Of a DNA stretch of 64,000 nt, positions 21,417 through 63,735 are shown in pieces. The notes below the pieces were generated by a model. It did not search any database. It had not been told where the DNA came from and saw nothing but the letters and a program-made list of their open reading frames with translations. Source of the DNA: Anas platyrhynchos (Eukaryota > Chordata > Aves > Anseriformes > Anatidae); contig NC_092613.1 of the NCBI RefSeq assembly GCF_047663525.1, forward strand, positions 3,621,501 to 3,685,500. Direction: 5' to 3'. Every line of letters starts with the position of its first letter. The first letter of the stretch is position 1. The position numbers and the translations under genes are program-made.

Positions 21417-21905
21417 TCATAGAATAGCTTGGGTTGGAAGGGACCTTAAAGCTCATCCGGTTCCCCACCTCTGCCACAGGCAGAGATGCCACCCACCAGA
21501 TCAGGTTGGACAAGGGCCCGTCCAGCCTGGCCTTGAGCATCTCCTGGGAGGGGGCATCCACAGCTTCTCTGGGCAGCCTGTTCAGTGCCTCGCTACCTTT
21601 ACAGTGAAGAATTTTCTCCTACTGTCTAATCTAAATCCATCTCCTTTTAGTTTAAAACCATACCCCCTTGCCCTATCATTATCTACCTGAGTAAAGAGTC
21701 CTTCTCCATCCTTTTTATAAGACCTCTTTAAGTATTGAAAGGCTACAATGAGGTCTCCCTGGAGCTTTCTCTTCTCAAACCTGGATGCAGGTCTCCAGGT
21801 AGGGCCACATGAGGGTAGAGCAGAGGGAGACAGTCACCTCCCTCGACCTCCTGGTCACACCTCTGTTGATGCCGCCCAGGATGCAGATGACCTTCTGGGC
21901 TGAAT
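21417..21905 (-). mobile_element. CR1 LINE 3' fragment
   Basis: Reads ATCATAGAATAGCTTGGGTTGG at its left edge, the reverse complement of the CR1 3' terminus. It continues through the family's characteristic words (GGAAGGGACCTTAAAG, AGGTTGGACAAGGGC, CTCTGGGCAGCCTGTTC, GAGTCCTTCTCC). The element is on the - strand, truncated at its 5' end, and one of the best preserved CR1 copies in the window. Confidence 0.92.
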
Positions 21906-29400: not shown

Positions 29401-31848
29401 CTGTGCTGTGGGGAAAGGAGATGAGAGAAAAAAAAGGTGGAGATTTCCTGGAGCTTTTCTGTTTTTCTGTTTCGCTTTTCCTTGGCCCTAATCCATCAGG
29501 AGCCACTGCAGCCTCTAGTGGCTAAAGGCACTACTACAGACCCCTGAAAAATCCAGCTCGTAATTAATATGATGAGGCTGGCAAGTACACAACCGTCTCG
29601 CATGTAACAGCCAGCAATCCTGAATCTAGTCCTGCTGATGGTGTGATATGTGAGAATATCTGGTTTTGAAAAAGCAAGGGAAAAAAGATATTGAGGAAAA
29701 AACATAGAGACACTGGGAGAAATTCAAAAGCTGGTTGACATTGCAGTGTTTTCAACAATTGCACAGGTTTTGCAGGAAAAGATACGTAGGAGGGAAGATT
29801 TTTCAGAGTAAGAGTTCTTGTGGGGTTAGGTGTTTTTGCTGGCTTTACTTCTAGTTCTAACAGTTTTTGACTATTTGACACTTGATTCTCCCGTATTAAA
29901 ATATGATATAATTGTGGTCTTCTCATCTGGAGTTAAGGCTTTCAAATCTCCTACAAGGAGATGCAAGATGAGTTTGCTTCTTGCAAAACTTCTGATTTTT
30001 GTTTTTAAATGGCTTGGAATTTTGTGAATGTCTGCTCACAAATTCCAGTGGATAAAGCAAATAAGAAATATGTAAAGAAATTCCAAACTATTAACAGTTC
30101 TCTATAGGGAATTTGATTAAAAAAAAAAAGTTTTTCCTCAAAAGTTTTGCCTTTAATAACGCCCCAGTTTTACCAGGTATCTCAGTAAACAAACAAACAC
30201 AGAACTCTGGACAGGTTCAAAACATTGCAAGCAAAGCACAAACCTGGAAATTTGCAATAATACAAAGTCCAAAACAGCTTATCAGTCCTAGAGTCAGGCC
30301 GATCTTATTAAGCTTGATGATCTTGGATTTTTCTGGATTCAAAGCATAAACTTGCTTATAACGGACATACATGGTAGCCGCACCTGCAAATGAAAATCAC
30401 AAATGTGTTTAAGATTTTAAGCTGTCAAGTAAACTGTTTTGTTTGAACTGCGAAGATGCTGAGTGACAGTAGCATCTATTTAAAATACCAAAACTGTCTT
30501 AGGAATAGGACAGTTGAGAATTTGGAAGCCAAAACTGAAATAACTTATTGGATTTTTCTTAGAATCATAGAATCATTAAGGTTGGAAAATACCTTATCTC
30601 TTTCACTTGAAAAACGTATTGTTTTTTCCCCTCTCCATAACTGCAGCACAAGTAAGATGACTGCCTTAACTCTGCATTTCTATTTCTCATAACAGTTTCT
30701 TTGTTTGTCTTTTTTAAATGTATTTTTGGCCTTCTGGAATCTGCAATTGTCATGCTGGCTTTGTGCGTAAATCCCTGCAATATAATTTTCTCTGAATTAC
30801 TTAAGAGAACTAGGATTAATTGCTTAAAATTTAGCTTTTGATGAGAATTATGGGATGTTTTAATGATTTGAATAAGGAAACCATTTCAAATGCTGTGCAT
30901 CCCAGAACCACATGCAGTTTGCCATGGACAGCTTTCTATACTCACCCAAGAAAGCTGAAATATTTAACATGATCCCAAACAAGCATCTTTCTGGAGGTAT
31001 TGTCCCTGTATCACTGGAAGAGATAAATGGAGTGATACATATCTATATTAAAAATACTTGCAATACAACTTTAGTTATTTCAGTCTACAAAGAAAGCATA
31101 AGAAAGCTTGTAAAAACCCTCCCGGCTATTTTTCACTGTTTTCATTACTCTAACAATACTGTACTCGTTTCTAGAGCTCTAGAAATACATGTAAGCACAG
31201 TGAAAACTGCTATCCTTAGAACAAGAAATTAACGTGCTTGGTATAGCTATTCCTTTTATTCTGATCTTGATTCCACAATAAAAGGTGAATAAAGAGTATT
31301 AAAACTGGGAAATGAAGAACCTGGAAATCTGAAAGACCAAAATTAAGGCCATACGTACAGCTTTGATGGTATGCAGTTGGCACTGTAGATTACAGAACAG
31401 CTTTACTGACAAAACCAAGCCTGGAGAGAGCAAGATGCTGTTCTCCAAACAGGGCTGGAGACTCACCCCCAGATTTCTTGTTCATTATCATTTTAAGGAT
31501 ACGTTCATAGAACCACAACATAAAGGACAGATTAGATAGACAGAGAGCTTTGAATAGACTTACAAATTCGTTTAGCGATTTGTAGGCAACTTTAGAACTG
31601 GAGCTGTTGGGTAAAAGCTGGTATTTAAAGTTTGGAGTTGGGGAAGAATTCAGAAGCGTGAGAGGCCAATTCAATACTGTGATACGGTTATCAGGGCATT
31701 GTCTGCACATTACTAACCTGATATAGGGCACCAAAGGGTCAACGTGGTGTAGGACGATAGCGGTGATGTATGAAAACACAAAAGATGCAGCTGACCAAAC
31801 AACCAAAGACGCAGGCAAGAAAGAGAGTCCTTGCTGGAACCACCACAT
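23316..31848 (-). CDS. DRAM2: DRAM2, DNA-damage-regulated autophagy modulator 2 (seven coding exons)
   Basis: Exons 31718-31848, 30946-31013, 30244-30383, 27630-27807, 24852-24934, 23857-23949 and 23316-23423 (- strand) join in phase to exactly 266 aa, the length I recall for human DRAM2. It is a six-pass lysosomal membrane protein that promotes autophagy; human loss-of-function causes a retinal dystrophy. Seen: [12 protein letters not shown] start, [14 protein letters not shown] after the first membrane segment, [14 protein letters not shown], hydrophobic segments near 9-31, 56-72, 97-112, 117-140, 160-182 and 206-225, the family motif FLTYIRDFQ (223-231), and a cytosolic tail with an acidic dileucine signal DEQTLL (256-261). 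Every junction obeys GT-AG. The coding part is complete within the window. Confidence 0.95.
23857..23949 (-). CDS. DRAM2: DRAM2 coding exon 6
   Basis: 31 codons, phase 0 at both ends, acceptor TTATACAG, donor GTAAAA. Encodes the last transmembrane helix and the signature FLTYIRDFQ. Confidence 0.94.
24852..24934 (-). CDS. DRAM2: DRAM2 coding exon 5
   Basis: An 83-nt exon, acceptor TTTCTTTAG, donor GTGAGT. Encodes the luminal-loop segment ending [10 protein letters not shown], matching the K-L-H-W-N-P-E-D-K element of mammalian DRAM2. Too short and too interrupted by neighbouring stops to show as an open frame; found by phase and motif search. Confidence 0.93.
24935..27629 (-). other. DRAM2: DRAM2 intron 4
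   Basis: 2.7-kb intron between coding exons 4 and 5. AT-rich, with no repeat family or extra exon that I recognise. Confidence 0.6.
27630..27807 (-). CDS. DRAM2: DRAM2 coding exon 4
   Basis: A 178-nt exon with acceptor TTCCCTAG. Encodes [33 protein letters not shown] and the following helix. The donor is GTATCC, weak by consensus. It was chosen because only it leaves the phase needed by exon 5 and matches the end of the homologous human segment. Confidence 0.88.
27808..30243 (-). other. DRAM2: DRAM2 intron 3
   Basis: 2.4-kb AT-rich intron. I see nothing in it beyond short A/T runs. Confidence 0.6.
30244..30383 (-). CDS. DRAM2: DRAM2 coding exon 3
   Basis: A 140-nt exon with acceptor TTTGCAG and donor GTTTGT. 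Encodes [19 protein letters not shown], then a helix ending in IIANFQ, which marks the end of this exon in the family. Confidence 0.93.
30561..30600 (-). mobile_element. CR1 3'-end scrap in DRAM2 intron 2
   Basis: AATCATAGAATCATTAAGG followed by TTGGAAAATACC is the reverse of the CR1 3' terminus. Only about 40 bases remain. Confidence 0.65.
30946..31013 (-). CDS. DRAM2: DRAM2 coding exon 2
   Basis: A 68-nt exon bounded by TTCCAG and GTGAGT. Encodes [20 protein letters not shown] and the start of the second helix. The DTGT-x-PPE motif is shared by DRAM1 and DRAM2. Confidence 0.93.
31718..31848 (-). CDS. DRAM2: DRAM2 coding exon 1
   Basis: Residues 1-43 plus two bases: start MWWFQQG, then the first transmembrane helix and [10 protein letters not shown]. 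The donor is AG then GTTAGT. A plausible acceptor (CCTCACAG) just upstream places the exon start at about 31876, so 28 nt of 5' UTR precede the ATG. Confidence 0.93.
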
Positions 31849-32263
31849 TGCAGAGCTGACTTCTAACCTCTGAACACTGTGAGGAATTGAATAAAAAGGT
31901 TTACTGAGATTTTTTTTGAGGCAAGCTGCCTATTCATACAGTCTACCGTTGTTGTCAAGGATGACTCTTCTCTACAAAGGCTATGCCAAGGTGAAGTGGA
32001 TTTGATGTTGCTCTCAGACCTGTCTTGCAAACTGTCTTGCAAAAAAGTGAGATTTGACTTCACAGTACAGAAGCAATCACAAAGAAGCAGAAATAATATC
32101 TGGAAGTGTTCACTCTGAAATTCTTAGGAGACCATGAGAAAAGAAACCAGTAGAGCCACTTTACTGTGCATCTCAGCATTTGTAGCATTTGTAGTGACTC
32201 TCTTGACCTTTTCCTGGTATAAAATACCTGGAAATAACTGATTATTTTCTTCTTACCCTTGTG

Positions 32264-32345: not shown

Positions 32346-32860
32346 GACAGAGAATGTGTCCCAATAGTGACAATTTAATGATACCGGCTGTTGTAAAGCC
32401 TAAAATTTCCACTAGCAAACAACTGGGTAGAAAATGACCCAAAATTATTTTAATATCTGTATTCATTTAGTACCTGTCATGATGTGTGACTCAACATCTG
32501 TTACAAGCATCACTTAAATAAGCTCACAGATATCAATGAGCAAAAGCTGACTGCTACCATCTGTAGCCTTCAGCCTCGAGGACTGCCTGTTCCAGGTGGA
32601 AGTGTAGCAGCTGCTTTGTCTTTAAAGGTGTGAGAAAAGGGCCCATCTACAGTGGTGTTGCACTGCTACCTCTGTCCAGTTCTGTAAGCCCCAGCCTGAG
32701 AGCAGCTCCGTGCCTCTGCCACCAGCAGTCAGAGCAGTGACGTGCAGCGGTGTCACCCCGGTGAGCTCACAGAACCAGGCTCCTCTCTGCACTGCTGCTA
32801 GAGGGAAGGAGCTTCCTACTGGCTTCAGATATGAAGTTGAGCTGAATTGCTTTCTGATTT

Positions 32861-33192
32861 TGGAATCACAAAATGCCTGAGGTTGGTGGGGATGTCTGGG
32901 TTCATCTCCAAGCCCCTGCTCCAGCAAGGCCACCCAGAGCAGGGTGCCCAGGACCATGTGCAGATGGCTTCAGGAGATCTCCAAGGAGGAGACTCCACAA
33001 CCTCTCTGGGCAAGCTGTGCCAGTGCTCAGTCACCTTCACAGGACAGAAACGCTTCTTGATGCCCAGACAGAGCCTCCCATGGTTCAGTTTGTGCTCACT
33101 GCCTCTTGTCCTGGCACTGGGCACCAGAGAGGAGCCGGGATCTGGCTTCTCTGTGCCCTCCCTTCAGGTATTTGTACGGATTGATGAGAACC
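32861..33192 (-). mobile_element. CR1 LINE fragment
   Basis: Starts GGAATCACAAAATGCCTGAGG and continues with CR1 words in reverse orientation (GGGATGTCTGGGTTCATCTCC, CAAGGCCACCCAGAGCAGG, CTCTGGGCAAGCTGTGCCAG), each slightly diverged. 5' truncated. Confidence 0.85.
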
Positions 33193-39214: not shown

Positions 39215-39553
39215 ATGAGCGGGCATCGAAACCTCAAGAGGCGATGTGGGGAGTCACATCTGGAATCCCCCGCGGGCTGTGGACATGGTCCTGCCGCTGG
39301 CTGCGTGTTAAGCAAACTAGTTCAGCTGCCTACACCTCCCCTGTCAAAGCACCAGCTAAAACGGTTAGAAGAACACAAATACCAGAGCGCTGGACGATCG
39401 CTGCTTGAACCTCTAATGCAAGGTTACTGGGAATGGTTAGTTGGAAGAGTTCCAGCCTGGATTGCCCCGAATCTGATCACCATCATTGGACTGTTAATAA
39501 ATATCTTTACAACTCTGCTATTAGTATATTACTGCCCAACAGCTACAGAGCAG
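39215..39553 (+). CDS. CEPT1: CEPT1 first coding exon
   Basis: 113 codons ending TEQ, donor GTAAGT. The exon starts near 39152 after TTGCAG. The chosen start is the MSGHR methionine conserved with mammals. An upstream in-frame ATG at 39158 would add 19 residues. Contains [20 protein letters not shown] and the first helix (APNLITIIG...). Confidence 0.93.
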
Positions 39554-42500: not shown

Positions 42501-45500
42501 CTGCTGATGTGTGGTAGTCAAAAATAAAATACTTGGTAGTAGAGGTGCTGCGCTAGGGAGCCCTGAAGCTTTACAGGTCTCAGGAAACACGGTGGCTCAA
42601 CTTGAAGTCTAACAATTTGAGCACTACACGGTCACGTAGCTCTCAAATACCTCTGCAGCCTGGTAATGCCCTGTATTTGGCAGTGTTTTGGGACGTGACA
42701 CCTTGTTGAGGTCTTGTGAAGATGAGCTCAGCGTTTGTGAGGCAGCTGCATGTTTTGGGGGCTAAGAAAGCATGCAAATCTCTACCTCACTCAAAACAAC
42801 TTACAAATTCCTCTACAGGAAATAGAAACTAGACAAGAGCTTAATTGTGCCCCGCTTTGCATATGCAGTTCTGTCTTTTTCAGATGTACAGAGCGGTTTC
42901 CTGCTTTAGAATATGCACTATACCTGTTAATCTGAGCTGTAACTTCTGTTTTATTAACATTTCACATGCCATAACCCCCTCTGCCTGCCCCTGCACGGGC
43001 CAGCTACTGGAAGGCCCATGCATGCGACTTGGTAGATTTCTAGGTAAGAAATTGTGTGCAAATGCAAAGCTGTAAAATGAGTTTAAGGTGTTTTAAACCA
43101 GAAGGATTAAGTTTAACTTTAAACTGTCTTTTACCCTCACTGATAATTTCTTTCTTAGGCACCTCCCTGGGCATACATTGCCTGTGCATGTGGCCTTTTC
43201 ATTTACCAGTCTCTGGATGCTATAGATGGGAAACAAGCAAGAAGGACAAATAGCAGTACTCCGTTAGGAGAGCTTTTTGATCATGGCTGTGATTCGCTTT
43301 CCACAGGTATTGTCATTTTTACTTAAGTATTGAGGATTAAGTGACTCTATTTCAGGGGGTCAAATCTGGAATAGAAGAAAATGTTCCTTTACTGAAGAAG
43401 TGGACCACTGATGTTTCTGGTGGTTTAGCTTCTCAATCAACTTTCTTTCGATAGATCAACTGAATGCCTTCTCTTGTGTTATGCTGAAAATTAAGCATGT
43501 GACTTATTCAGTCTGAGCCAGCAATTTTTTGTGTATGCTTTATCAGTCTTGGTTCTGAAAATTTACTGAAAAAAAAAAAGCTAAAGTGCTCTTCTATATT
43601 AATTTAGATCTAATTTATACAGAACAATTGCACGTATGGAGCCTGAGCAATGGGACAGTAGAAGTCTGAGTTTGATTAGTGTCGGTCAGATCAGTTCCTT
43701 TCTAGGTAGGTAGAGTTCATTGGGCCAGCCTGAAGTTTAATCCCGTTGCAAAAGAATGATCGGATGCTTTAGAATTTAAATAACTGAGAGCTCTTATGAA
43801 TTATATTTCTATTAGTATTTTATCAAAGTTGCGTGTTAAAATAAGTACAAATGCATAGATACCTTACAAATCTTAAGTGGTAAACCTTGGATTTTCTTAG
43901 TGGCATAAAACTTCAGAAAATGGGGAAAAACACGTTCAGCAAACCTTGGATACAAGAGAAAACCCCCAAACTGTCCACAGGCTCCAACTGCATAAATTGC
44001 TCAAGTCTGTTGATGTCTAATCTCATTAACTTCAGTGAAAATATAAGAGACTTAGAAACCCTGAAATTGAGGACTTCTGAAAACCGATAAGACTTCTAAT
44101 ATGCTCTTTACAGTCTGTATTTTCAATGGAAGTGATCAACTCTTATAAATGTCTATGAAGTAAAACTCATCAGGATACCTGCGCGCTGTTGCTCCTGTCT
44201 GGGTCCTTTGTTAGATTTGCTTTTGGTAAGGATCTTTACACACATACACACTTTATGTTTTTACCATGTGACTGATTTTCTTCTGCAGTCTTTGTGGTTT
44301 TGGGAACTTGTATTGCTGTGCAGCTGGGAACGAACCCTGACTGGATGTTCTTTTGTTGTTTTGCTGGAACGTTCATGTTTTACTGCGCGCACTGGCAGAC
44401 GTACGTCTCTGGAACGCTGCGTTTTGGCATGTAAGTACCTTGGCTGAAAATAAAACTGAAAGTTAAATGGCTTTTCTGTCTAATTCCTCTTTGTGACTGT
44501 AGTTCAGATTGTTTAGAGTGGTAGTAAACTGTTTATGTGCTTAAAGCTTGTAATAGTTATTACCTATTATTGCATTATTCAATAGCTGTTGAATGCACAG
44601 TTAATACTGAATGTTCCTTAGCTTGTTCTAGGAGTGGTAAAGTTTCTTTTTTCCACGTTAAGAGCTCATGATGTGATTTAAACCTAAATAGGGGAAAATA
44701 CATGGGGCTTCAGCCCCGATATTTGGCTGCCTTTGTCAGATGGTGGCAAACTGACTTAACTATCTCTCTCTTGATCTTCCTTGACTTTTGATGATGTATA
44801 GTTAATCTTTGCTGTTAAGCATAACTCTTAAATACAGTGTATTAATTGACATTGTGGCTGAAAGTTGAAAATCTGAGTCTGTTTTAGTAAAGATTGGTTC
44901 TGTTAATAATGGTGCAGAAATGCGATGCCTAGAAAGTCAACAGCCAAAGTCTCATTTGCTTGTGCATGAAGGTAGGTGGGCAAACAGCTCCCAAGGACTC
45001 GGTGAGCTGTGGGATTCACCAAGCTTCATGCAGAAGCATACGTTTGTTCTACCTCTGCACTTGTGTCATGTAATCTAATAAATATATTTCCAGTTAACAA
45101 GCTGCAGAATGAATTTGCATCTGAAAACTTCTGAAATTTGCTCCTAGTGTGGGATTTTGAAACAATGCTACAATGTGCACTGTTTACTTAGTCTGTTACT
45201 GAGTTATTCATATCTCAGATACTGCTAAAACAGCTCAGTTACGGACATCTAGTCTGTAGCAGCTCTTATTGGCAGAATACTAATACAGATTCTCTTGAGA
45301 AGCTTATTTCTAAACTGCTGTTCTAATTCTGACTGTACCAAAGCAGAGTAGTTTCAGTCAATAGTTTCTGATACTTAGATCTTGATGACATCTGACTCAT
45401 AACCTGTATGTTTTTAGGCTTTTTTTCTTTTATGCTGTAATGGAGCTCTCAATACTGAATGCGTTTTAGCTCCTTTTCAACATTATGGGGCCCTGATAAT

Positions 45501-48500
45501 GAAAGTTCTTGTTTTTTGACTGAAAACAGGAAAAAAAAACTTGGCATGTGCTTGACTGTACAGATGCAAGCAGCAAGTCTACCTGATTTGTCTTTGTGCT
45601 CTAGACAAATGGGTGCATTGCTCCTTGTGTTCACTGTAATGTTTGTTCTTAGATTTTGTGAGGAATCTTTATATTTGGAGACACCGAATCCTGTGTTCTG
45701 CATGGCTGTATATTATGAAAACCTGATGATCCATTGATATGTAGAGAAGGCAATAAACACACAAATATGTATCATTATTTCAGATAACAGATAATGTTGT
45801 AAACACATCTGTTTCTTCATTTGCACAGTGTCATAAGGTTAAGACTGCCACAAGCTGACGTTCATTTCTGTGGCAAGAAAATCTGAGATTAGATCTGAGA
45901 TCCTGTTAACCACTTCTCACTTTGGTATGATTTTTTTCTGAAACTTCCACCTCCCCAGATGTAAAACTGGAAATGCATCAGTATTGTACCTACCCTGCCA
46001 GGGCTTGATGTGTGCATCCTATCCCTCCCTGGTGGTCTAGTGGTTAGGATTCGGCGCTTTCACCGCCGTGGCCCGGGTTCGATTCCCGGTCAGGGAAAAG
46101 AGTTTTTTTTGATGGGCAGAGGCCAACAGGATGAGATTCAACATGGCTCAGTGCCGGGTCCTGTGCTTTGGTCACAACAACCCCACGCAGCACTGCAGGG
46201 TGGCTGGAAAGCTGTGCAGAGGAAAAGGACCTGGGGGTGTTGGTCAGTGCTCACCTGAACATGAGCCAGCAGTGTGCCCAGGTGGCCAAGAAGGCCAACA
46301 GCATCCTGGCTTGTGTCAGGAACAGTGCAGCCAGCAGGGCCAGGGAGGTGATGGTCCCCTTGTACTCTGCTCACAGATAACCAGGGACAGGAGCAGAGGG
46401 AACGGCCTGGAGTTGTGCCAGGGGAGGTTGAGGTGGGCAATGAGGAGCCATTTCTGCTCAGACAGAGCAGGCAGGCGTTGGGACGGGTTGCCCAGGGAGG
46501 TGGGGGAGTCCCCGTCCCTGGGGGGGCTCCAGGAGAGGTTGGGGCTGGTGCTTGGGGACATGGTTTAGTGGGTGACATTGGTGGTAGGGGGACAGTTGGA
46601 CCCAGGTGATCTTGGAGGTCTCTTCCAACCTTAACGATTCTGTGTTTCTATCCACAGGTAAACGCAGGCTTAGGCATTCTTGCTCCTGAGTAAGTGGAAT
46701 CAGAGACAGCTGTTGAAAGGGGCTGCAAAGGTCTTAGTGCACAGTGACTTGCTCCCATCTGTGTATCCTAAGTAGTAACTGAGAAACTGTCTTTAATTAG
46801 AGATCAACTCAGTAGGCAAGCCATAAATGGCTCAACACAGCAGCAGGCTGATGAAGACAGGTTAGTATTTCATTCCTTAAATGCTATTCAACAGTTAAGT
46901 ATATAATTGGCTTGGTTTACTGAAAAAGTCCATCTGTAAAGCAGGAGTGTTCACCCTGAAGGAGGAGAAAATGGGATTGCTTCAGCTAAATTCCTAGAGA
47001 GTATTGCAGGTGGAGCAGGAAAACCATGAGTTTAATTGTGCCCAATTACTGAATACACCAACTACTCTGGTTCTTTTTCTTCCTACTAACAGCATCAGGG
47101 CTGCCCTGGACTGCTCTAGGCTTGTTCCCAGCGGTCTGTCTCCATCTTTAAATGATGATTATACTTTTATTAGATCTTGGCAGCTGATGCGTTTTTCGAA
47201 GAGCAATTTGAATTGGTTAAATAACTCAAAAAATAGCTAGAGGTCAGCATTGTGTAAAAATCCACTGTAAGGAAGTTGTTTTTTTTCTTAAAACAAACTG
47301 GGTAGGTAACAGTAAAAGTCACCGCAGTAACATCAGCAGTGCAAAGGGATTAGGACGCAGCCCGGATAGAGTTAAGTGGAAGCCTTGCTGAAAAGCAGGC
47401 ATCTCATCTCACCTGGGAATGGGCTCATGAAGGAGCAGGAGTGTGCTGTACTCTTGAAGAAATAAAACAGTGGTTTGGGAATGCAGGAGAATATTGAGTT
47501 CTGAAGCAGTCCAAGCATTTGCTTTTCCTGTCCTGTTTTTCAGCACAGTAGCTGGTTTATCTGGATTGTGGACTAGCTGTGCACAATACAGAATGAGTTT
47601 TGTTTCAGGCTTAGTCTTGAATGGTGCAGCATAACTGGGGCATCTCTGGTTTGGAAAAAGTGCATTTTTGCACAAAAATCAAACTGGTAAGTCCAATTGC
47701 ACTGCCATGTGTCAAGGTAGAACTAGTTCTCATATTTTAGGAACATCATGCCAAAATCAAGAGCATTCAGGGATATTGTTCACAAACCTTGAAAGGAATT
47801 TGCATGCCATTATCTGGAGCCCTGTTTTGCTTACTGGCTCCGGTTCTTCTCGACCCAGCGTTAATGTTGCTTGGATTCTGTTCTGCAGCTGCTCATTGCT
47901 CTGGCTTTAAGAAATGTATTAGGAGATGTCAGTTACACAGGTTCAGTTCTGCATTTAACCTTGTCAGTGCACAGACAGTCTGACTGCAGCAGCTGCCTCA
48001 AATCCATGGTAGTTGGAAGTGAAGCAGGAGCTATCAGGCTCCGTCAGAGCTGAGCCAGGTTCTGCACTGCACGCACCTCAATTGCTGCCGTAAGGGGCAT
48101 GAACAACAGCTCATGGCACAGAAGGACAGGTGAGGGCCTTGTATGCTTGGCCATGCTGGGCTGGGCAAAGCTAAAAATCATATTGTAAAAACCCAGTGGG
48201 CACCCGTCAGAGGGTGCTGCTGCACCGTCACTTCCAGCATTTCTCCTGTGGGTTATCTGACTTACCCCAACCTTTCTTAACTGAAATATGGAAAGCTGGC
48301 AATAGTAGATGTTATATATACAAACAACGAGATGAAACATCCTTAGAAACTAATGCCCATAAAGACTTACCAGTAAACACTGAGAGGAAGGAACAGTTCT
48401 TACTAGCTTTCATAGAACTGACAAGTTAAAAATGTTACTTCGCTGCTTGAATAACAATCCCTAGAGAAAGCAGAAGAATTCAAGCTGTCTAATGAAACAG

Positions 48501-51500: not shown

Positions 51501-54500
51501 TACAATATTTTAAATTAATACACTCACTCTGAGGTTGCTCATTCCCTTCCTCTCACCCTTCAAACTTTATCAACAGTGACTGTTGTAATGCTGCTTTGTA
51601 TTTTTCTGGATCTTATTTTACAACATGAATGAAAATCTGCTCTGATGGGTTCACTTAGCTGAAGTGCTCAGGAAAATGTTTTGAAATGTTTCTTTCCCTT
51701 GCATGTAGATTTGATGTTACAGAGTCTATGCTCTGTACGATAGCAATCCAGCTTCTCACAGGAACTCTGGGGCCCTGGTTCTGGAACTACACGGTAAAGC
51801 GAACGTTAATGCTACCCAGCACAAATGGCATGGACTAAGCAGCGACAGCACCTTTGTCATGCACATAGTAACTGGGATATGAGAGCATCTTTCTAAGGGT
51901 ATTTCACAAGTGCTTTAATACGAAGGGAAAAAATGTTTACAAAGTATGAATGAGCAGTAAAAATCCAATCTAACTGGAAATGATTTTTTTTGGAAGCATC
52001 ATGTTTTTACTTGAAAACAAAACAAAACTGCCTGCGAAGCAGAAGAGCTTGCTTTAAGCTTTACTGTGTTGTCACAGTTCTGGCTTCACCTAAAAGACAA
52101 TGAGGGCTGTGGAAGCAGCTTTATGTGCGTGGGTGTAAAATTGTGTTGGAACTACTTCTTAAAGCTATACAGACTTCTATTTAAATTCCTTTCCACAGGA
52201 AAAAAAGACTTGTTTGGCTAGTTGAGGGAGTTGTGTGCTGTGCAGTAATTGAAAGTTGCCAGTTACTGGTTAAAAATGCCTGTTTTGAACGATACCACTT
52301 CATCCTCATAGTCCAGTCTCTCAACTGTGCTTGTAGCCTCCTTGCTAAGTAACTTCATTTCCTGGCTGTCTGGATTTTGAGAAATGCTTCTCCTTATGGC
52401 TGTGCTAACTGTGCCCTTCTCTGTTCTTGGTTGCTACTCTTCAAAAGAACTTTCTGTTCCTTATTTCGGCTTTGTTTAATATGGTATACACAGGTGGTCC
52501 CCCTGCCTCCCCGCTGAAATGGTACAGTTACCAGTGAGTTAAGTTCCTTGAAATTTCTCGTGCTTCCTGGATTACTAGCCAGGAGGTTTCTTTGAAATAT
52601 TCAGGGATAAAAGGATGAGTTTTTAATAGCCTTCTCAGAATTGCCGCAGGTTTTAAATAAAACTGTTTATTTTTTATGCTGTCTTCCCCGTGCAGGGTTT
52701 CATCACCATCTCTGCTTCCAAGATGCTATTAAAGAGTCTTTAATTACCAGCTCTACTTTAAATCCACCAAAAGCAAAAACCTGGCAATTCAGTGTGCGTC
52801 ATGTCTGACACCTCAGGTGCAGGGTCAGTTGGGTGTGCTCCGAAGGGTCAGATGGGTGACATCACTTTTGAATACTTTGACAGTCTGTGAAAGGCTGGAA
52901 ATGCTTAGTTTCAGGGAATGGCAATCTAGTGACTAATAACTTGAAGGAAGTTTAATTGGGATTTTTATCCTGTTATGATAACAGCATTATGACCATGCCT
53001 GAGAAGTCATTTAGGAAAATATTTTTTCCTAAGTTTCAAAAGATGTGGAGATTTCCAAGGTCACCAGTTGTATGATAGTTACGCGGGAGGAAGCAATTCA
53101 AATTCTGTAATGAAATTGAATCAATTTAAATGGATGGCAATAAATCCCTGCCTAATGCAGGGAGCGGGGAGAGTTCTAACTTTTCCCACAGGTGACCTGG
53201 AACTGATCGAGATCTCAAATGCTAGACTCCATCTGTGGTCTCTTCAGAAAGAATGACTTTGCCTTGAAAGAAGAAATGTTTCACAAATAAATACAGCGGT
53301 TGGTGGAACTGGTGAGTGTAGCGGATGAGCCAGGCAGGGTGTTGTGTCACTTATACTCCAGCAACAGTGTGCTAAGGGTTTGCTTGTGACAATTTCCCTC
53401 AGGCACACTAATTTTAGACAGTTATTAAGCATACTGAATTACAGAATAGATTTAATCATCTTCTTAAATTCTTGCATATGTAGCTTCAGATGCCTTCTGG
53501 CATCTCTATTTTTAGTCTTAACTAATAAATAAAGATGATGCTGCTTCCAAGTAACTTGCCTGGAACACAGAAAGCATCATAATTATCTTACAGCTTGAGG
53601 TCAGTGGTACAGATTTTGTTTCAGTGTTATCCATCTCAGAAACATAGCAAGCTACAGGAAATACATATTCACACAGTTTTTCATCTGAGCTGTTCCGTGT
53701 GGCAGTTAGTTTTAATGAAAAAGTCTAATAATACAGCCTACATGACCTGGCAAAATACGAAGTGAATAGGTTCTGATTCTAGCACCATAGATTAACCTTG
53801 TATTTTTCAAACCTTGGTACCCAGCATGTTTTAATTAATCAAGGAGCAAAATCCTGAAAACTGTTCATGAGGTTTGCTTATGTTTTTATTAGCCTTTGGA
53901 TAAACTTATTGAGACTATCACCTAGCTTTTTAAGCAGGAAAAACCTCAAAGACTTTGGGAATTATGTTAGAACAGACTTGCTGTATTTGAGTGTGAGCAT
54001 GCTGCAGATCTCTGAAGAGCCTCAGCTCTGCATACCTACCTCTTGCAGCTCTGCAATGTCATCCTTCAGTGCTTGTAATGTTTTACCTCACACTTAGGTG
54101 TTTTTTGTGAACCAGAAGTGGGCAGTTATAACTGTGATACTACAGTTCAGCATGACATATGTTACGTCTAGTGGATTCACAAATGAGGGAGCTGAAGATG
54201 AATGGATGGACCTGGCAAATACTCAGCCTGTTACAGAAAATATTAAAATAATTGCATTCTTGATAATCTTCTGTTATGATAGAAAACAGAAGTAACCCAC
54301 ATTTATGTTTGGCCTGACAGGGAAGGACAGATTAACAAGTAAAATGCATTGCAACTTCTGGTAAACTCATTGCAGTCTCACTGCAGGAGTTGGAGAACGC
54401 CTTCTGCAGCTACAGAGGCATGCTGCTACATCCTGCTATCTTAATGAATGTGGGCAGACAGGCAGCAAGGGATGAAAAGTGCATTTAAAAATGCACAACT

Positions 54501-57500
54501 TCATGCTTTTGACTTTATCTGAATTGAAACACTTGGGTGTTCTCACTTACAATCTTTTAGTTCTCACTGATACCTGCTGCCATTGTTGATATTGCTTGAC
54601 TTAGTCCCTGCTGTCCTCTGCTCTGCAGAGGTGCTGTTTGTTGTTCCTTCTTAACATCAGTTTGCTGTGGAATCAGTGTTTTTCAGGTCACTTTCAATGG
54701 TTTTCCCAGGCTTGCAGTTAAATGTTCTGTCTAGGCATCTTGAGTTTGTGTTAAACTACTGAGTCTGGTTATAGCTTCAGTGTCTGATCTTTGTTCTTTG
54801 CCTGGATGTTCCTGCTGATTTTTAAAAGCCTGGTTTAGGGTCTTCTGTTTATTTTATAGAAGATGAAAAAGGCCCTTGGTTTATTTGAAAAGGTGGTCTT
54901 TGGAATTAGACTGCTTTGTGTGCGTTGAGGAACTGTTGCAGTAACTTTACATCCATCTGTTGTAGTGTGGGCATGTCTCAAGGAAACGTCTTTCATTTTC
55001 CTCACTTCATAGGTATTAGGGCTCTGCTATGATATGTCTCTGCATCATCCTAGCAACATAAACTGTTTGGGCAGTGCTGCCATGAGTCAGTTCATCAAGG
55101 CACATCAGACAAAAAGCTGTCAGGTTAGGGGGAGTGTGGCCCAAGTGACTGATGAGGATATCCCAGTTCAGAGGCTTTAGGAACCCCCTTACTTGAGCTG
55201 CAGAACTTAGGCTGCTTGCTTTTTCCATTTGCTTTTCTTAGGATATCCACTGTAGCATTTAAACAAGTAAAATACAAATGCAAGGAGAAAAATGAGTCAG
55301 ACGTTGAACTGTCTGATTCCCTTCTTGCTTTGAAATATTTCTGCTTTCCTGCAGCCTGTGTATGGCACGGGGCTACTGGGGGCATCCATCTGCCCAGCTG
55401 CAGTGATAGTATTGCAGGTCTGCAGTGTGCAAGGATTTTTCCCCGGTTTTGATTGCCAAAAGCTTCTTTTTCTCCTTGTGGTATGTCACCTATCTTTTTA
55501 CTTTCAAGCTAAAATATTGTTCTGCTGTTGGTCAATAAATAATCCACAACTCAATCTCACACTTTCTGCAGTCTTTATCATAGGAAGAGGCACTTCAACG
55601 TGCAACAGAACTTTGCCTAAAAATAAAAAGGCTCTATTTACGGAATACTTAGGCAGGAATTGTTCACCCCCCTGCTTTGCAGATAATTTCCCTAACCCTC
55701 AAAGCAGACTACATATATGTTTTACTCAAAAGGTCAGCATGGGTAGTTCAGAAGGGCTTTAGTCTATGTTCAAGCAGCTTTTCCTGCTGCACAGCTTTTG
55801 TCTTGTCGCTTTTAGGTACCTTTCCAGTTCTACCAGAGCTTAAAAACAATATGATGACTGAGGCAGTTTATGGACGGTTTTTAGTGGCACATTTTATCTT
55901 GAAGCAATTCATAAATACAGGTTAATCATTAAGGTCTAGGAATGAATGTCCTCCAGATTGCCTGGCATTTGCTCATGTTTTCCAGGCAGTGCTGTGCGTT
56001 GCCTTTTCTCAGTAGCTTTCTTGACAAAAAACATTGTTGCTTTAGTTTAAATTGCAGAGTGTTTTCTTTCAATTTGTTTTACTACTGTGATACATTTAAA
56101 GCTTTTATGAACAGTAGCAGGCCACTTGCATTACATTCAGAAGCCTGAACTCATTCCCACTTATTCTCCCTTGTAGTTGGAGCTGTGCGTGTGCTCTACC
56201 CCAGCGTGCAGTCCTGCTGCCAAGAGAGGCCGTGCAGACCTTCCCCTGCCCTCTGCACTGCTTGCGTCATTCCTGGGGCCACCCACTATGCATAAGGAAA
56301 GCTGATATGCTAGAAACTGGGGTAGGGACTCTGTCCTTTTTCTTTTTTTGGCTGGGTCACTTTAGCTGAGCCAATTTCCTGACCCAGTCAATGGTGTGTG
56401 TGAGACCTTAGGGCTGGCACAAAGGGGAAAGCAGACCTGGGCAGCTGGGTTTTGGGGGAGAAAGTGGCTGGCCTTTGGAGATGTCAGGAGGACTGCACCT
56501 CTTAAAAGCAGCCTGGATTGCTTTCACTTCGTGCATCTACGGCATGAATCCTAGTTACATGAGTAGAGGAACAGCATGGCTCCTTTCCCTTTTTACCCAG
56601 CTCCAGTTTCCTAATGTTGTTCCATTTTGTGGTCGAGTTTCCAGGAGTTGCCCAGCTGGATTCCTCTATTTGGAGGTTTCTAGGTATTGGCCATCTGGCA
56701 GCGGTATTCTGTAAAAATAAATAAATAATTAATAATAATTAACTGGGTAATTCCAGTATCAGGCTTGTACTCCATTGATACAGTGTATCCTCTAAAAAGT
56801 CATCCAGTAGTGATTTTAATTAGTATAGGTGATAAGAGAATCCCCTTTAGGTAAGATGTTCACAGTCACTTGTCACCCTCAACATTAAGAACTTGCACTT
56901 TAAACACTCGTGACTGTTCGTAGAGGTAGCTTGAGTGATTCTTGTATCTTTGCCTTCTGTCTGAAGGAGGCGTCTAGTGCTAAAAATTATCTCTTTATGT
57001 AGAATTGAAGTTAAAACTCATTTGTTCTGCAATATGAGATTCTTACTGCAAGCCAGAGAGGACTTTTTAACCAAACAGGCTTGTAGTTCATTGCTGAACC
57101 CTTTCTAGCTATTTTTATTTGAGCTGGAGAGGGGCAGACCTAAGGGCGGTGGAGTGAAGGTTGTGCCATGGCTGTGTCTAAGCAAGGCAGGGCTGTCTCC
57201 CTAACCTGAATTCAGGAGCTGCTTCTGCAGATTTGGTCTGGCTCCCCGTTTTGGTTAAGAGTTCCTTCGGAAGACCTCATCCTCTGTAATCTGAGATGTT
57301 TTCTAATGCGTGACCGTACTTCATTTACACTGACTGCAGTCAAAAGAAACCTGTTTTAATGTCCAAGGAAAGCTGCAAACTTGAATTATGTACACTAATT
57401 ACTAGCCACTGTTTGTCTGAGCTTTCTCAGTTGCTTTATTTTCATCTAAGGTCATTGCCAGAAGTAGTGAAACAGCTTCATGTTTAACCTGTGCAGGTTG

Positions 57501-60500
57501 ACTGAGCTTCTTCAGCCCTTCCTTGGTTGGACACGCAAACACATTAGTTGCAAATTGCTTCCTCCCAGGTTTTAGAATTAGCATGGAAATCCGATGTTTT
57601 ATTGGTTTTAGAATTAGCATGGAAATCCGATGTTTTATTGGCATATTCTCTACCTTTTGCTTTGACCAAACTCTACCCTGCTATATGCTCAGTCTGGCTT
57701 GGTCCTTCCTGGGCATTTCCTGTGTGCATAGCGCGCTGCTGCTGCAACAAAGATGTGTTTTAGCCAGGCTGGGAGATCTTCATGTGACAGGATCTGCTCC
57801 AAAGCTGGAACAAAGGCTGTAGACCTCTCTATCATCCACACAGGCATGATATTAAACTTGCTTATGTGGTCTTGTTGCTCTTTTAAAACAAACATAAAAA
57901 AAACAAAAAACTTTTCACTCTCAGCCTATGCAGCTGTTACCAATTTCAACAGTACCCTTAAAAGAGCTAAGCATGCATTCACAAGTGATTTTGAGTCTTT
58001 TAGGTAGAACTGTGTGATTAGAGCTAATGTATGTGCAGAAGTATTTCCTGTTGGCCCAAAGGATTATTTTTGATGCAGTATTCCAGCATGAGACAATATT
58101 ACATAGCTTGATAAACACCCACGTGTCCATCCTCATTGTATTTTATGTTTTTCCTTTGACTCCTGTTTCTGGAATTGACTCATGTGGCCTTGCTTTTCCT
58201 TCTTGCTATCTCAGACTTGGTATGATCTTTTAAACAATGCCTTAAAATCTGTCTTTTCTATAAGCCTTTCCTTCCTGCCCTTCTACAAGAGATACTGGCT
58301 ATGCTAAAACCAGAAGTGGTTTCTCTTCTTGCTGCATGCTGGATACTGAAGTGTGTAATCTCTAGCAATGCAGCTGATTGTACAGTTTACATGTGCATCA
58401 GGTCTTCAGGAATTCATGTTTTGTTTTCAAGCTTGATGCTTTTCGGACAGAACATTCATTTAAAAATAAATATAGGGAATTTAATAATGACTAAAAATAT
58501 TAAATGAATTTTACAATCTGGAATCAATTTGTTTTGGTGGGCAAGGTTAAAACTGAACACTTATTCCTGTGACTGACAATGGCCAGGTAAAAAGTTCCAA
58601 CAGTTCCTTTTGATAAAATGGATTTTTATTGCATTGTGAAATTAAAAAAAACAAAATGAAAAAAGTATAGCACAGCATGGCTCTTACTTTTTAACAAGAA
58701 AACTAAAATATATTTTTGCTTTCCAAAGTATTGATGTCTTCTATTTTCCTTGTGTTTTCAAGTTTTTGTACTGTGCATGATAGAGGAGAGCTGCCAAGCT
58801 TGCAAATAATTGACTTGAAATTGCTTTGAATAATTCTGCTTTTCTTGGCTTTTTGTACCTAATCAGAATTGATGTGACTGAAGTGCAAATCTTCATAATA
58901 ATCATGCATTTACTGGCAGTGATTGGAGGACCGCCTTTTTGGCAATCTCTGGTAATTTTGTTCATGTTCTTATTTTATCCTTTTTAAATTAATTTATCCT
59001 TTTTTAATAATCTAGTATGTACCTGGAAGAACTACCTGCCTCCAGTAGCATGGTTTCACTTATGAGGGAAGGGTCTTACTTTTCCTCATAGTAAATACAT
59101 ACTTTTGAGAATGGAGCAAATGGCAATAACCATGCATTCTGGTTTTCCCGGAGCTGTTCAAACAAACTATTATTCTAAATCTTGTGTTATTTTGCAGGTA
59201 GAAAGTTATCAAACATTTACAAACTTAATATACCTTCACTGACGTCCAGCCTCCTTTGAGTGAGCTGGCCAAAACTTGAATGAATTCATGCAGCAAGCTA
59301 AATCGGGAACAGAAGAATACTAAATTGGATTGCTGGTATGGGGGAGATTCTTGGAGAGCAAGCAGTTGGTGTAACCATCAGGAGATAATTCAGCTTGAGC
59401 GTGCTAGTCAGCTCTTACGGAGGAGGGGGGAAAAAAAAAAAAACAAAAAACAAATAGCCATGTGGCTCTTTTAAGGATCATTCAGATCAAGGAAGCTAGA
59501 GATCCTGTGGACTTTGTAGAGGCTCACCTGGCTAAATCAGCTGGCAGCTTATATGCTGTTGCAAGTTGATGTTGTCTTAAACGTTGTCATATTTTATATA
59601 TTGTTATATTAGCACTCATGAAGCCCCACTGGGCATTTGAATACAGCATTACCGAGATAAAGTATGTATGTACATACATTTTGTACATATATCACAAACA
59701 AAACAGAAGTTGAGAAATAGCTTCTAAATGATTCATTTCCTGGAAAGCTTCCTGAGTATTAATCTTGTTTGTGTACTTGATGAACCCAGTTCTTAAGGTG
59801 GATAAAGAAATCTTGATTTGCAGTAAAAGAATAAAACCAAGAGATGGTCAAAAATTACTGAACCTTGTCACCCCCAAATCACTGAATTTCTAATCTGCTT
59901 CATAAAACTAGAGAAACAAACCCTCTAATGCTGTAGAAAATATCTAGAATAAGAAGCTAACCTTGGTTACCTCAATTTTGCTACATGTTGTACTTTCAGG
60001 TTAAACACAACAAAAAACATTGAAAACCACCAACATTCTCCTACCCACACAAACTAAGCTGCAAAGTGCATCCTGCCTTAAGAGTATGTCTGGATAGAAT
60101 TATCTCTTAAAAAACAAGATTGCGAGTTGGCTTATTGGTGCCAAACTCTTCCAAAGAGATCAGTGTGGCCAACATCCACACAGCTATTGTTAGGCACCAC
60201 AAAAAGGGATTTCCCAATTCATGCTGTTACTTTCCTTTTTTCCCTTTTTTAAAAAGAGGAGGGGGAAAAAAATTGCTGCAACAGTAAGCTCTGGCACAAT
60301 TCAGTTCAGGATGAAGTTTGTGCAAGAGCTTAATAATTGTTCCCTTGTGCTATTAAACATTTTTCAGTAAAATCTTAATATATTTGAAGTTCTGTGTTGT
60401 AGCAGCATTTGGCTAAGTAAATTCCCAAATGATTAAAATATTTTGAAGTCTAGTGTTGGTTTTATGGAGGCATTTCTCTAGAGAACAAACTTCATCAAGT

Positions 60501-63500: not shown

Positions 63501-63735
63501 AATGTGGTGTTGGAAAGTGGAGTGCTTGAGTACGCTAGAAGTACTAAACCCTGCTTTAGTTTACTTGTGCATCTTTTAACTTGTTTCATCTCTTCCATTA
63601 AAGATTCCAATACTGAATATTCAGGTGAAAATATTCCCGGCTCTCTGTACTGTCGCAGGAACGTTCTTCTCCTGTACAAACTACTTTGGTGTAATCTTCA
63701 CAGGTGGAGTTGGCAAAAACGGATCCACTATAGCA
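39215..63735 (+). CDS. CEPT1: CEPT1, choline/ethanolamine phosphotransferase 1 (3' partial, with two alternative exons)
   Basis: Exons 39215-39553, 43159-43306, 44289-44430, then either 51709-51793 or 58867-58951, then 63604-63735 join in phase to 282 residues; the family is about 416 aa and the rest lies beyond the window. CEPT1 transfers phosphocholine or phosphoethanolamine from CDP-alcohols to diacylglycerol, the last step of the Kennedy pathway, in ER and nuclear membranes. The catalytic CDP-alcohol phosphotransferase signature D-G-x2-A-R-x8-G-x3-D-x3-D is intact (D136, G137, A140, R141, G150, D154, D158). Membrane helices are visible at about 83-106, 115-131, 163-176, 184-197, in the alternative exon (210-238), and in 245-273. 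MSGHR at the start and the [12 protein letters not shown] helix match mammalian CEPT1 rather than CHPT1. Confidence 0.95.
39554..43158 (+). other. CEPT1: CEPT1 intron 2
   Basis: 3.6-kb intron; includes a 22-base poly-A run at 40815-40836. No repeat family or extra exon recognised. Confidence 0.6.
40815..40836. repeat. Poly-A run
   Basis: Twenty-two consecutive A with no SINE or LINE body beside it. Confidence 0.95.
43159..43306 (+). CDS. CEPT1: CEPT1 coding exon with the catalytic motif
   Basis: A 148-nt exon, acceptor TTTCTTAG, donor GTATTG. Encodes [20 protein letters not shown] and the [20 protein letters not shown] stretch, so all the metal- and substrate-binding Asp/Gly/Arg residues of the CDP-alcohol phosphotransferase motif are on this exon. 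Confidence 0.96.
44289..44430 (+). CDS. CEPT1: CEPT1 coding exon 3
   Basis: A 142-nt exon, acceptor TTCTGCAG, donor GTAAGT. Encodes two membrane helices and [13 protein letters not shown], ending with two bases (AT) of an Ile codon that either alternative exon completes. Confidence 0.95.
46026..46097 (+). tRNA. tRNA-Glu (anticodon UUC)
   Basis: A 72-nt sequence that folds as a complete cloverleaf. The acceptor stem TCCCTGG pairs with TCAGGGA (one G-T pair) and has discriminator A. The D arm contains GGTCTAGTGGTTAGGA. The anticodon stem CGGCG/CGCCG is perfect, with loop CTTTCAC and anticodon TTC at 46059-46061. The T arm is CCCGG-GTTCGATT-CCCGG. The internal A box and B box (GGTTCGATTCC) are intact. 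It closely matches vertebrate tRNA-Glu genes. A run of eight T (46103-46110) follows. It lies within a CEPT1 intron in sense orientation. Perfect stems, intact boxes and a terminator argue for a functional gene rather than a SINE head. Confidence 0.95.
46103..46110 (+). terminator. RNA polymerase III terminator of tRNA-Glu
   Basis: Eight consecutive T, beginning five bases after the tRNA discriminator base. Confidence 0.9.
46112..46652 (+). mobile_element. CR1 LINE 3' fragment with internal deletion
   Basis: Begins abruptly at the tRNA terminator and runs to the CR1 3' end (TCTTCCAACCTTAACGATTC then TGTGTTTCTAT). Family words are clear: GAAAAGGACCTGGGGGTGTTGG, here quoted in part, AACATGAGCCAGCAGTGTGC and GGAGGTGATGG. 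The element jumps near 46377 from the TACTCTGCTCA segment to a downstream segment, so an internal portion is missing. 5' truncated. Confidence 0.92.
51709..51793 (+). CDS. CEPT1: CEPT1 alternative exon A
   Basis: 85 nt with a good acceptor (TTTCTTTCCCTTGCATGTAG) and donor (ACG then GTAAAG). It completes the Ile codon left by the previous exon and encodes [20 protein letters not shown], ending in GPWFWNYT. It ends in phase 0, so it joins directly to the exon at 63604. It is homologous to exon B: 12 of 29 residues are identical, including D-V-T-E, the central LL, and G-P-x-F-W. The ending WNYT-IP recalls CHPT1, as I remember that protein. No stop codon or frame break. The exon shows every sign of selection as coding sequence. 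Confidence 0.85.
51794..58866 (+). other. CEPT1: CEPT1 intron between alternative exons A and B
   Basis: 7.1 kb, AT-rich, with a 36-bp tandem duplication at 57568-57641. No other exon, tRNA or repeat family recognised. It is far too long for steric interference between splice sites to explain exclusive use of A or B. Confidence 0.6.
57568..57641. repeat. 36-bp perfect tandem duplication
   Basis: The unit begins GGTTTTAGAATTAGCATGG at 57568 and again at 57604. The two copies are identical, so the duplication is recent. Confidence 0.95.
58867..58951 (+). CDS. CEPT1: CEPT1 alternative exon B
   Basis: 85 nt, acceptor TTTTTGTACCTAATCAG, donor CTG then GTAATT. Encodes [20 protein letters not shown] and GPPFWQSL, nearly identical to the corresponding segment of mammalian CEPT1 (FGIIDVTEVQ...). 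It has the same length and phases as exon A. This is the version expected in the canonical protein. Confidence 0.95.
58952..63603 (+). other. CEPT1: CEPT1 intron after alternative exon B
   Basis: 4.65 kb, AT-rich, no recognised repeat or exon. Confidence 0.6.
63604..63735 (+). CDS. CEPT1: CEPT1 coding exon following the alternative pair
   Basis: 44 codons, phase 0 at both ends, acceptor CCATTAAAG, donor GTGAGT. Encodes [20 protein letters not shown] and [24 protein letters not shown]. The [11 protein letters not shown] block is a family hallmark, followed in mammals by GTSVLSP on the next exon, which is outside the window. Confidence 0.95.

Follow-up and report, generated by a model that had tools for sequence, protein, structure and literature searches.

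The CEPT1 gene in the 64,000 nt stretch of duck DNA analysed here (the window) contains two homologous exons, A (51709..51793, + strand) and B (58867..58951, + strand), which are best explained as a tandem-duplicated, alternatively used pair encoding the membrane helix TM5. Exchange of this helix, which belongs to the proposed gate for diacylglycerol (DAG), probably shifts the acyl preference of the enzyme for DAG.

The gene is CEPT1, as an earlier sequence-only reading of this DNA had claimed. The joined protein carries the class II signature DxxDGxxAR...GxxxDxxxD as DAIDGKQAR...GELFDHGCD, and of CEPT1 and CHPT1 it is closer to human CEPT1. The first coding exon in the window (39215..39553, +; codons 1–113; donor CAG|gtaagt) scores 162 bits against a CEPT1 chain (8gyw_B, E 6.1e-47) versus 106 bits for the best CHPT1 chain, and is 80.5 % identical in tblastn to a human CEPT1 query. 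The exon carrying the catalytic motif of CDP-alcohol phosphotransferases, with GELFDHGCD (43159..43306, +; donor CAG|gtattg), the exon before the swap point (44289..44430, +) and the 132 nt exon after it, which encodes TM6 (63604..63735, +), were located by tblastn and exon joining. The coding exons of CEPT1 in the window alone cover 24.5 kb.

Exons A and B are each 85 nt long, lie in the same phase and have GT-AG splice sites. The preceding exon stops at 44430 with AT, so that A and B each complete the Ile codon ATA; each finishes in phase 0, and the next exon starts at 63604. The borders of exon A are ...ttgcatgtag|A and ACG|gtaaag, those of exon B ...acctaatcag|A and CTG|gtaatt, and the approximate donor score is 5.23 for A (suboptimal) versus 6.34 for B. 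The encoded peptides, of 29 residues each, are identical at 12/29 positions and the nucleotides at 43/85. Exon A encodes M217, C219 and T220 (human CEPT1 numbering) and ends in an N-Y-T sequon; exon B encodes Q217, F219 and I220. Exon B is the standard CEPT1 exon, matching human CEPT1 8gyw at 27/28 residues after the split Ile, and the chain in that structure carries the B form. The 28-residue segment of exon A is identical in a Calonectris protein. When the sequence was re-read, the lengths, coordinates, phases, splice sites and peptide identity reported earlier were all reproduced. An HMM whose only input was 41 distinct TM5 segments taken from invertebrate-type proteins (118 source proteins, 108 with an organism name, all arthropod) recovered exon B at E 5.4e-7 and exon A at E 5.8e-5 from the six-frame translation of the window, with the next match at E 0.55. 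No third TM5-like exon was found in the window with a broader HMM that included A segments (next E 0.19), and likewise no second TM6-like exon was found there with a TM6 HMM (next E 1.3, true match E 2.5e-21).

Joining 44430 to A only or to B only gives 282 codons without a stop. Inclusion of both exons leads to a stop at codon 240 and omission of both to a stop at codon 214, so that the frame arithmetic of the sequence-only reading, allowing exactly one of the two exons, is upheld. Each transcript would thus carry exactly one of A and B, since both or neither would bring an early stop and nonsense-mediated decay. A U2/U12 mismatch as the means of exclusion was rejected, all sites being of the usual GT-AG type by eye, as was a too-short intron, the A-B intron being 7073 nt long. 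With neither splice-class mismatch nor short intron, exclusion would rest on frame and decay or on regulation. As to competing RNA pairing between introns, the longest perfect complements are 13–15 nt, lengths that also turn up among 20 shuffles for all three comparisons. One RBFOX-type TGCATG motif lies within the acceptor of exon A (51700) and another upstream of B (58774). They were set aside as regulatory evidence: read-through models from Cuculus (P0009) and in P0014 give ARR, not ACR, before exon A, so that conservation of the A motif is improbable.

Sequence comparison marks exon A as a genuine second form of TM5 and not an oddity of birds. Among the matches listed for two A-type queries, an A-type segment is present in 33/33 proteins (15 from the first and 18 more from the second), from birds, mammals, lizards, amphibians, sturgeon/paddlefish and teleosts; both queries were chosen to find this segment, and the lack of shark, lamprey or non-arthropod invertebrate matches is no evidence of absence there. 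Isoform names are carried by 20 of the 33, the NCBI isoforms with A being mostly predictions, and two short 'lgn' contigs, P0022 (2442 bases) and P0028 (2053 bases), hold spliced-looking A-form frames that reach the usual C-terminus, although in the window the coding exons span 24.5 kb. Stops in related species had been named as the observation that would tell against exon A; the 28-residue segment is free of stops and frameshifts and of constant length in all 33 proteins, in a search in which damaged copies would hardly surface. Five models contain both exons, in the order A then B (P0003 from cow, P0016, P0018, P0019 and P0025), and their frames are kept open only by additional sequence between the two exons, a feature suggestive of prediction error. 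The presence of an A-type exon from ray-finned fish to mammals argues for the ancient tandem duplication proposed earlier. The sequence-only reading expected that databases may hold one form and knew of no description in birds; both forms are annotated, and A extends to mammals, lizards, amphibians and ray-finned fish.

In six matched species, B segments are on average identical at 22.0/28 positions versus 15.7/28 for A (15 pairs), so that the constraint on A is weaker or of another kind. Sturgeon A and mammal A share 22/28 residues. Teleost A shares 11–15/28 with tetrapod A, and A-B cross comparisons give 7–15/28; identity alone thus does not establish orthology of teleost A, which rests instead on exon order, frame and the sturgeon sequences. 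In 28-site trees of the A/B split relative to the CEPT1/CHPT1 split, B joins CHPT1 with weak support (FastTree 0.72, IQ-TREE 64) and A is not one clade. Likeness to the arthropod exon shows no clear preference, with means of 10.5 (A) and 11.7 (B) of 28.

The swapped segment is TM5, which flanks the cleft between TM5 and TM6 that has been proposed as the DAG entrance. Passages of the cryo-EM paper on CEPT1 (PMC10156783) describe V213, V216, F219 and I220 of TM5 as holding the acyl tails and propose DAG entry between TM5 and TM6; the same slit is proposed from Xenopus CHPT1 in a passage of PMC10182977. The earlier placement of the exchange in a membrane segment next to the active site accordingly becomes more exact, as the published structure has TM5 lining the acyl-tail chamber. 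The same passages of PMC10156783 give a 40 % loss of activity for V216L and a 60 % loss for Q217L, and attribute to their ref. 25 a lower activity and an altered DAG profile for V216A. All six distinct B segments have V at residue 216, where the 27 distinct A segments have S (17), T (3), L (4), V (2) or A (1), the six with V or L all being teleost. Residue 219 is F in 6/6 distinct B segments and C (15), S (7) or I (5) among the A segments. D212, E215, G231 and W235 are invariant in both. The structure predicted by AlphaFold for an A form from a mammal (mean pLDDT 72.5, pTM 0.75) has TM5 as a helix at 213–230 and TM6 at 248–270, and its overlay on human CEPT1 8gyw (TM-score 0.92 by target, rmsd 2.8) suggests that A fits the CEPT1 fold; the model is weak at 205–211, just before TM5 (pLDDT <50), and uninformative on side-chain contacts.

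Replacement of V216 and F219 in B by Ser/Thr and Cys/Ser/Ile in A would line the chamber with smaller, more polar residues. The A enzyme may then favour other DAG species or run at another rate, and splicing could let a cell alter the acyl composition of newly made phosphatidylcholine (PC) and phosphatidylethanolamine (PE). The suggestion of the sequence-only reading that the two forms differ in DAG preference is supported as a hypothesis, and the cryo-EM work, in the passages cited above, makes it more specific. Since V216 mutants lost activity, A may also be just a weaker enzyme.

The pair could be real and regulated with its main difference in processing, location or stability, the luminal N-x-T sequon being glycosylated or bound by ER quality-control factors. 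Unlikely as this is, the sequon N236-x-T238 is present in 22/27 distinct A segments, in 0/6 distinct B segments and in 0/41 distinct invertebrate TM5 segments. Residue 237 is also the most variable of exon A (3.41 bits, its neighbours 0.68 and 0.61), and a variable residue between two conserved ones would be expected if the sequon itself were selected. Xenopus CHPT1 has ten TMs with both ends cytosolic, according to a passage of PMC10182977. By analogy with that topology, the TM5-TM6 loop would be luminal. However, in the model the loop is only 17 residues long (231–247), and N236, six residues past TM5, is located where a short helix ends. N-glycosylation is usually poor at sites so close to the membrane. 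The sequon is moreover absent from 5/27 distinct A segments (four teleost and that of P0028), and the chamber residues differ between A and B as well.

A switch of headgroup preference, between CDP-choline and CDP-ethanolamine, is improbable. The choline-stacking Phe186 of Xenopus CHPT1 (passage of PMC10182977) aligns with CEPT1 F208, which precedes the swapped segment by two residues, and TM5 borders the catalytic cavity too; but F208 is encoded by the common exon 44289–44430, and the invariant D212 and E215 are retained in both forms. Passages of PMC10156783, which also describe the TM5 border of the cavity, have CDP-choline held mainly by TM1–3. Of the two preferences raised by the sequence-only reading, the one for DAG acyl chains is therefore favoured over the one for headgroup.

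Even less probable is expression control in which joint inclusion of A and B yields an out-of-frame, decayed mRNA and exon A is a poison exon that gives no protein. The stop at codon 240 lies 79 nt upstream of the point where exon B ends, and both exons do occur together in five models; yet those models need their extra inter-exon sequence to stay open, and A-only frames exist on the two short contigs. Across vertebrates, moreover, A has retained a protein-like reading frame without stops, in which D, E, G and W are invariant, and a poison exon does not need such a frame. That exon A is a decaying relic preserved by annotation software is very hard to credit: its lower conservation and suboptimal donor would fit, but the segment is undamaged in 33 proteins and well kept between sturgeon and mammals.

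CEPT1 makes the two main membrane lipids, and to our knowledge the control of acyl make-up at this step is poorly understood. Vertebrates appear to retain a second version of a helix in which a point mutation alters DAG use, one that predates the split of ray-finned fish and tetrapods. The A and B isoforms, together with the arthropod TM6 versions discussed below, are natural variants for testing acyl selection and the cryo-EM gate model, and studies on the B form only, such as that of the human structure 8gyw, would overlook A. A full-text literature search on CEPT1 and splicing gave no description of the TM5 exon pair in the passages returned. A sheep fat-tail study places CEPT1 among differentially spliced genes, in a passage that does not give the event type.

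The vertebrate paralogue CHPT1 has the same fold and a TM5 segment with conserved D-V-T-E and W. It differs from CEPT1 in that the two PDB sequences compared show a single TM5 form, with I (human) or L (Xenopus) at 216, A or S at 219 and no N-x-T sequon. The WNYT at the end of exon A had been likened to CHPT1; the likeness is only partial, because human CHPT1 has WDYT and the Asn of A makes a sequon that is absent from CHPT1 and B. Arthropod CEPT1/bbc models likewise have alternative homologous segments annotated as isoforms, with two or three TM6 versions in 24/62 named species (insects, ticks and kin). Unlike in vertebrates, however, the multiplied segment (44–45 aa) is TM6 and not TM5; it corresponds to the duck exon at 63604..63735 and forms the other wall of the cleft. 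These patterns raise the possibility, here put forward tentatively, that splicing tunes the DAG gate as a selectivity filter and that such a filter arose twice, through exchange of TM5 in vertebrates and of TM6 in arthropods. Animals would in this way set the acyl make-up of PC and PE by the gate helix, with vertebrates also tagging one form with a luminal sequon.

The pair resembles the tandem duplicated, mutually exclusive exons of vertebrates described in passages of PMC9741552 and PMC5740500, in being neighbouring homologous exons of equal length and phase, in a membrane protein and ancient in vertebrates. A frame shift leading to decay is one class of exclusivity enforcement described there. 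Unlike CEPT1, the genes emphasized in these passages are ion channels and muscle and brain genes; the word CEPT1 is absent from the main texts available for both papers, and the gene may be in their supplementary lists. Convergent exon duplication in vertebrate and arthropod orthologues, such as the voltage-gated calcium channels (passage of PMC9741552), is similar in that independent duplications affected different exons of the same gene family. CEPT1 differs from the calcium channels in that it is an enzyme and that the helices varied in the two lineages lie on opposite sides of a single proposed lipid gate.

The 5′ coding part of CEPT1, an enzyme acting in the last step by which phosphatidylcholine and phosphatidylethanolamine are made, is present on the + strand of the window as exons at 39215–39553 (the first coding exon in the window), 43159–43306, 44289–44430, 51709–51793 (exon A), 58867–58951 (exon B) and 63604–63735 (132 nt). 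The first exon scores 162 bits against human CEPT1 (chain 8gyw_B) and 106 bits against the best chain of the vertebrate paralogue CHPT1. The sequence-only reading is borne out for exons A and B: they are 85 nt each, in equal phase, flanked by GT-AG and identical at 12 of 29 residues. Its frame arithmetic also held, with A alone or B alone giving 282 open codons, and both or neither an early stop. An HMM of invertebrate TM5 only, run against the six-frame translation, matched B (E 5.4e-7) and A (E 5.8e-5), and the next match was at E 0.55, which excludes a chance match for the pair. Judged by its residues, 27 of 28 of which equal those of human CEPT1 (8gyw) after the split Ile, exon B is the standard CEPT1 exon. 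That the pair itself is real we hold to be nearly certain.

Elsewhere in the window, 7655–9283 (+ strand) holds a coding exon of LRIF1 (Pfam LRIF1, E 1.4e-250). On the − strand, a DRAM2-like piece at 27655–27768 matches the Frag1/DRAM family at E 1.1e-4, below the curated cut-off, and a candidate piece at 31390–31929, which we take to be DRAM2-like, has no Pfam match. LRIF1–DRAM2–CEPT1 would match the gene neighbourhood in human. Open frames at about 21346–21690, 32825–33184 and 46100–46650 resemble repeat-element remnants, with phrases such as 'HSLPREVVESPPW' that we assume to be typical of bird CR1/LINE remains.

All splice sites of the pair are ordinary, the intron between A and B is 7073 nt long, and intron–intron pairing in the A/B region is not above that of shuffles. 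Thus no built-in exclusion is visible. What is left as an automatic safeguard would be decay after a frame shift, one of the classes of exclusivity described in passages of PMC5740500. Donor scores from an approximate matrix are 5.23 for A and 6.34 for B, both below consensus, and 12.62 for the first exon; however, the common exons are also low (4.36 at 43306 and 5.91 at 63735), so donor strength says little. The RBFOX-type motif TGCATG occurs at 51700 in the acceptor of A and at 58774, 93 nt upstream of B; in Cuculus and in the retrieved A-type protein P0014, the motif at A is probably not kept.

The swapped exon corresponds to human CEPT1 residues 210–238, containing TM5, and the gap between TM5 and TM6 has been proposed as the diacylglycerol (DAG) entrance in cryo-EM work (passages of PMC10156783 and PMC10182977). 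In PMC10156783, V213, V216, F219 and I220 of TM5 are described as holding the acyl tails, and V216A is said to change DAG use (citing Henneberry 2002). Residue 216 is V and residue 219 is F in all six distinct B segments; among 27 distinct A segments, 216 is S in 17, T in 3, L in 4, V in 2 and A in 1, and 219 is C in 15, S in 7 and I in 5. Exon A of the window carries S216, M217, C219 and T220. D212, E215, G231 and W235 are invariant in A and B segments alike; on these comparisons, A retains the helix frame and alters lipid-facing residues. P0006, an A form from a mammal, was modelled with AlphaFold (36-sequence alignment; mean pLDDT 72.5, pTM 0.75); the model places TM5 at 213–230 and TM6 at 248–270 and superposes on the human structure 8gyw with a TM-score of 0.92 (by target length) and an rmsd of 2.8. 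The model shows A to be compatible with the CEPT1 fold and is not informative on changed selectivity. Our favoured reading, which as a whole we consider somewhat probable, is that the A/B swap shifts DAG acyl selectivity or rate.

The foremost rival is processing that depends on a sequon. The sequence-only reading had mentioned the WNYT end of A, which is confirmed as an N-Y-T sequon at 51785–51793, and had not drawn the contrast with B: N-x-T at 236–238 ends 22 of 27 distinct A segments, none of 6 distinct B segments and none of 41 distinct invertebrate TM5 segments. No residue of the exon varies more than the middle one of the sequon (3.41 bits; flanks 0.68 and 0.61 bits), and a variable middle between steady flanks looks like the pattern expected from selection for a glycosylation sequon. 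Xenopus CHPT1 has ten TMs and both ends cytosolic (a passage of PMC10182977), an arrangement that would make the TM5–TM6 loop luminal. In the A-form model, however, this loop has 17 residues and N236 lies near the helix end, so it is uncertain whether the site is used. A second rival to a shift in DAG selectivity or rate is a change in CDP headgroup preference.

Two A-type region queries against a collection of 5.8 billion proteins returned 15 of 15 and 24 of 26 candidates, and all 33 different proteins from both searches contain the A-type segment, as the queries were designed to find. They come from birds, mammals, three lizards, a newt, two frogs, sturgeon, paddlefish, catfishes, Menidia and Anabas, with no organism given for P0014, P0022 and P0028; 20 of the 33 names include 'isoform'. 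The collection is clustered at 90% identity, such that A and B of one species may share a cluster, and gives no frequencies; P0006 represents a cluster of 215 members, of which the representative alone was examined. Sturgeon is the oldest secure point for A on residue comparison, with 22 of 28 residues common to mammalian A; the pair is therefore older than the divergence between ray-finned fish and tetrapods. In teleosts the segments have diverged further, and they are assigned as putative A from exon order (A precedes B in P0019 and P0025), not from identity. The earlier suggestion that databases may hold one form proved too modest, as models contain both A and B forms. Five models (P0003, P0016, P0018, P0019 and P0025) have both exons; the frame of each stays open through additional sequence lying between A and B, which we read as prediction error.

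Two contigs with the source tag 'lgn', which we take to stand for assembled public read sets, contain A-form frames of 543 codons (P0022, 2442 bases) and 418 codons (P0028, 2053 bases) that reach the usual C-terminus. Since the CEPT1 coding exons of the window alone are spread over 24.5 kb, spliced RNA is the simplest account of these contigs, with a processed retrocopy as the alternative. Poison-exon control, a third rival to altered DAG use, would draw on the early stop given by A and B together; the A-form frames of these contigs speak against it. The weakest rival, that exon A is a relic, has to accommodate the residues shared by sturgeon and mammals.

An arthropod search used a chimeric query with a self-written invertebrate-like TM5, and its list therefore leans to such sequences; the best 120 of 1106 matches were listed, 118 of them new (P0034–P0151), and the 108 named are all arthropods. 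Among the matches listed, residue 216 is A in all 118 proteins (41 of 41 distinct segments), and only one named species has more than one TM5 segment, differing by one residue. TM6 could be parsed in 115 of the 118, and of the 62 named species whose TM6 segment is readable, 24 have, among the matches listed, two or three clearly distinct versions: scorpions, ticks, horseshoe crab, prawn, crickets, katydid, beetle, sawfly, mosquitoes and fruit flies are included. At least two proteins are listed for just 19 of the 63 named species, so that TM6 variation is hardly detectable in most others. The alternative segments are 44–45 residues long, from IP to GSTVA, and occur either as separate isoforms or one after the other within a single model; their switch points, as read at the protein level, coincide with the ends of the 132-nt exon at 63604–63735. 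In seven species compared without gaps, two TM6 versions have 11–21 of 44 residues in common and differ at 3–4 of the 4 positions corresponding to human C253 and T254 (acyl tails) and S261 and Y265 (chamber top). In vertebrates, then, the TM5 exon was duplicated and in arthropods, as it seems from these sequences, that of TM6; the two helices form the two sides of the proposed gate.

No account of the A/B pair was found in the parts consulted of the open full-text literature on CEPT1/cholinephosphotransferase splicing, CEPT1 DAG specificity and fly gene exons, and the word CEPT1 is absent from the main texts of two genome-wide surveys (PMC9741552, PMC5740500). In a study of sheep fat-tail RNA-seq, CEPT1 is one of the genes listed as differentially spliced, in a passage that does not give the event type (PMC10825154). 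The A/B pair joins a known class of exon pairs, with an unusual structural logic. Convergent exon duplication in orthologous genes is already known (a passage of PMC9741552); as far as can be seen, convergent duplication that hits both sides of one lipid gate is new.
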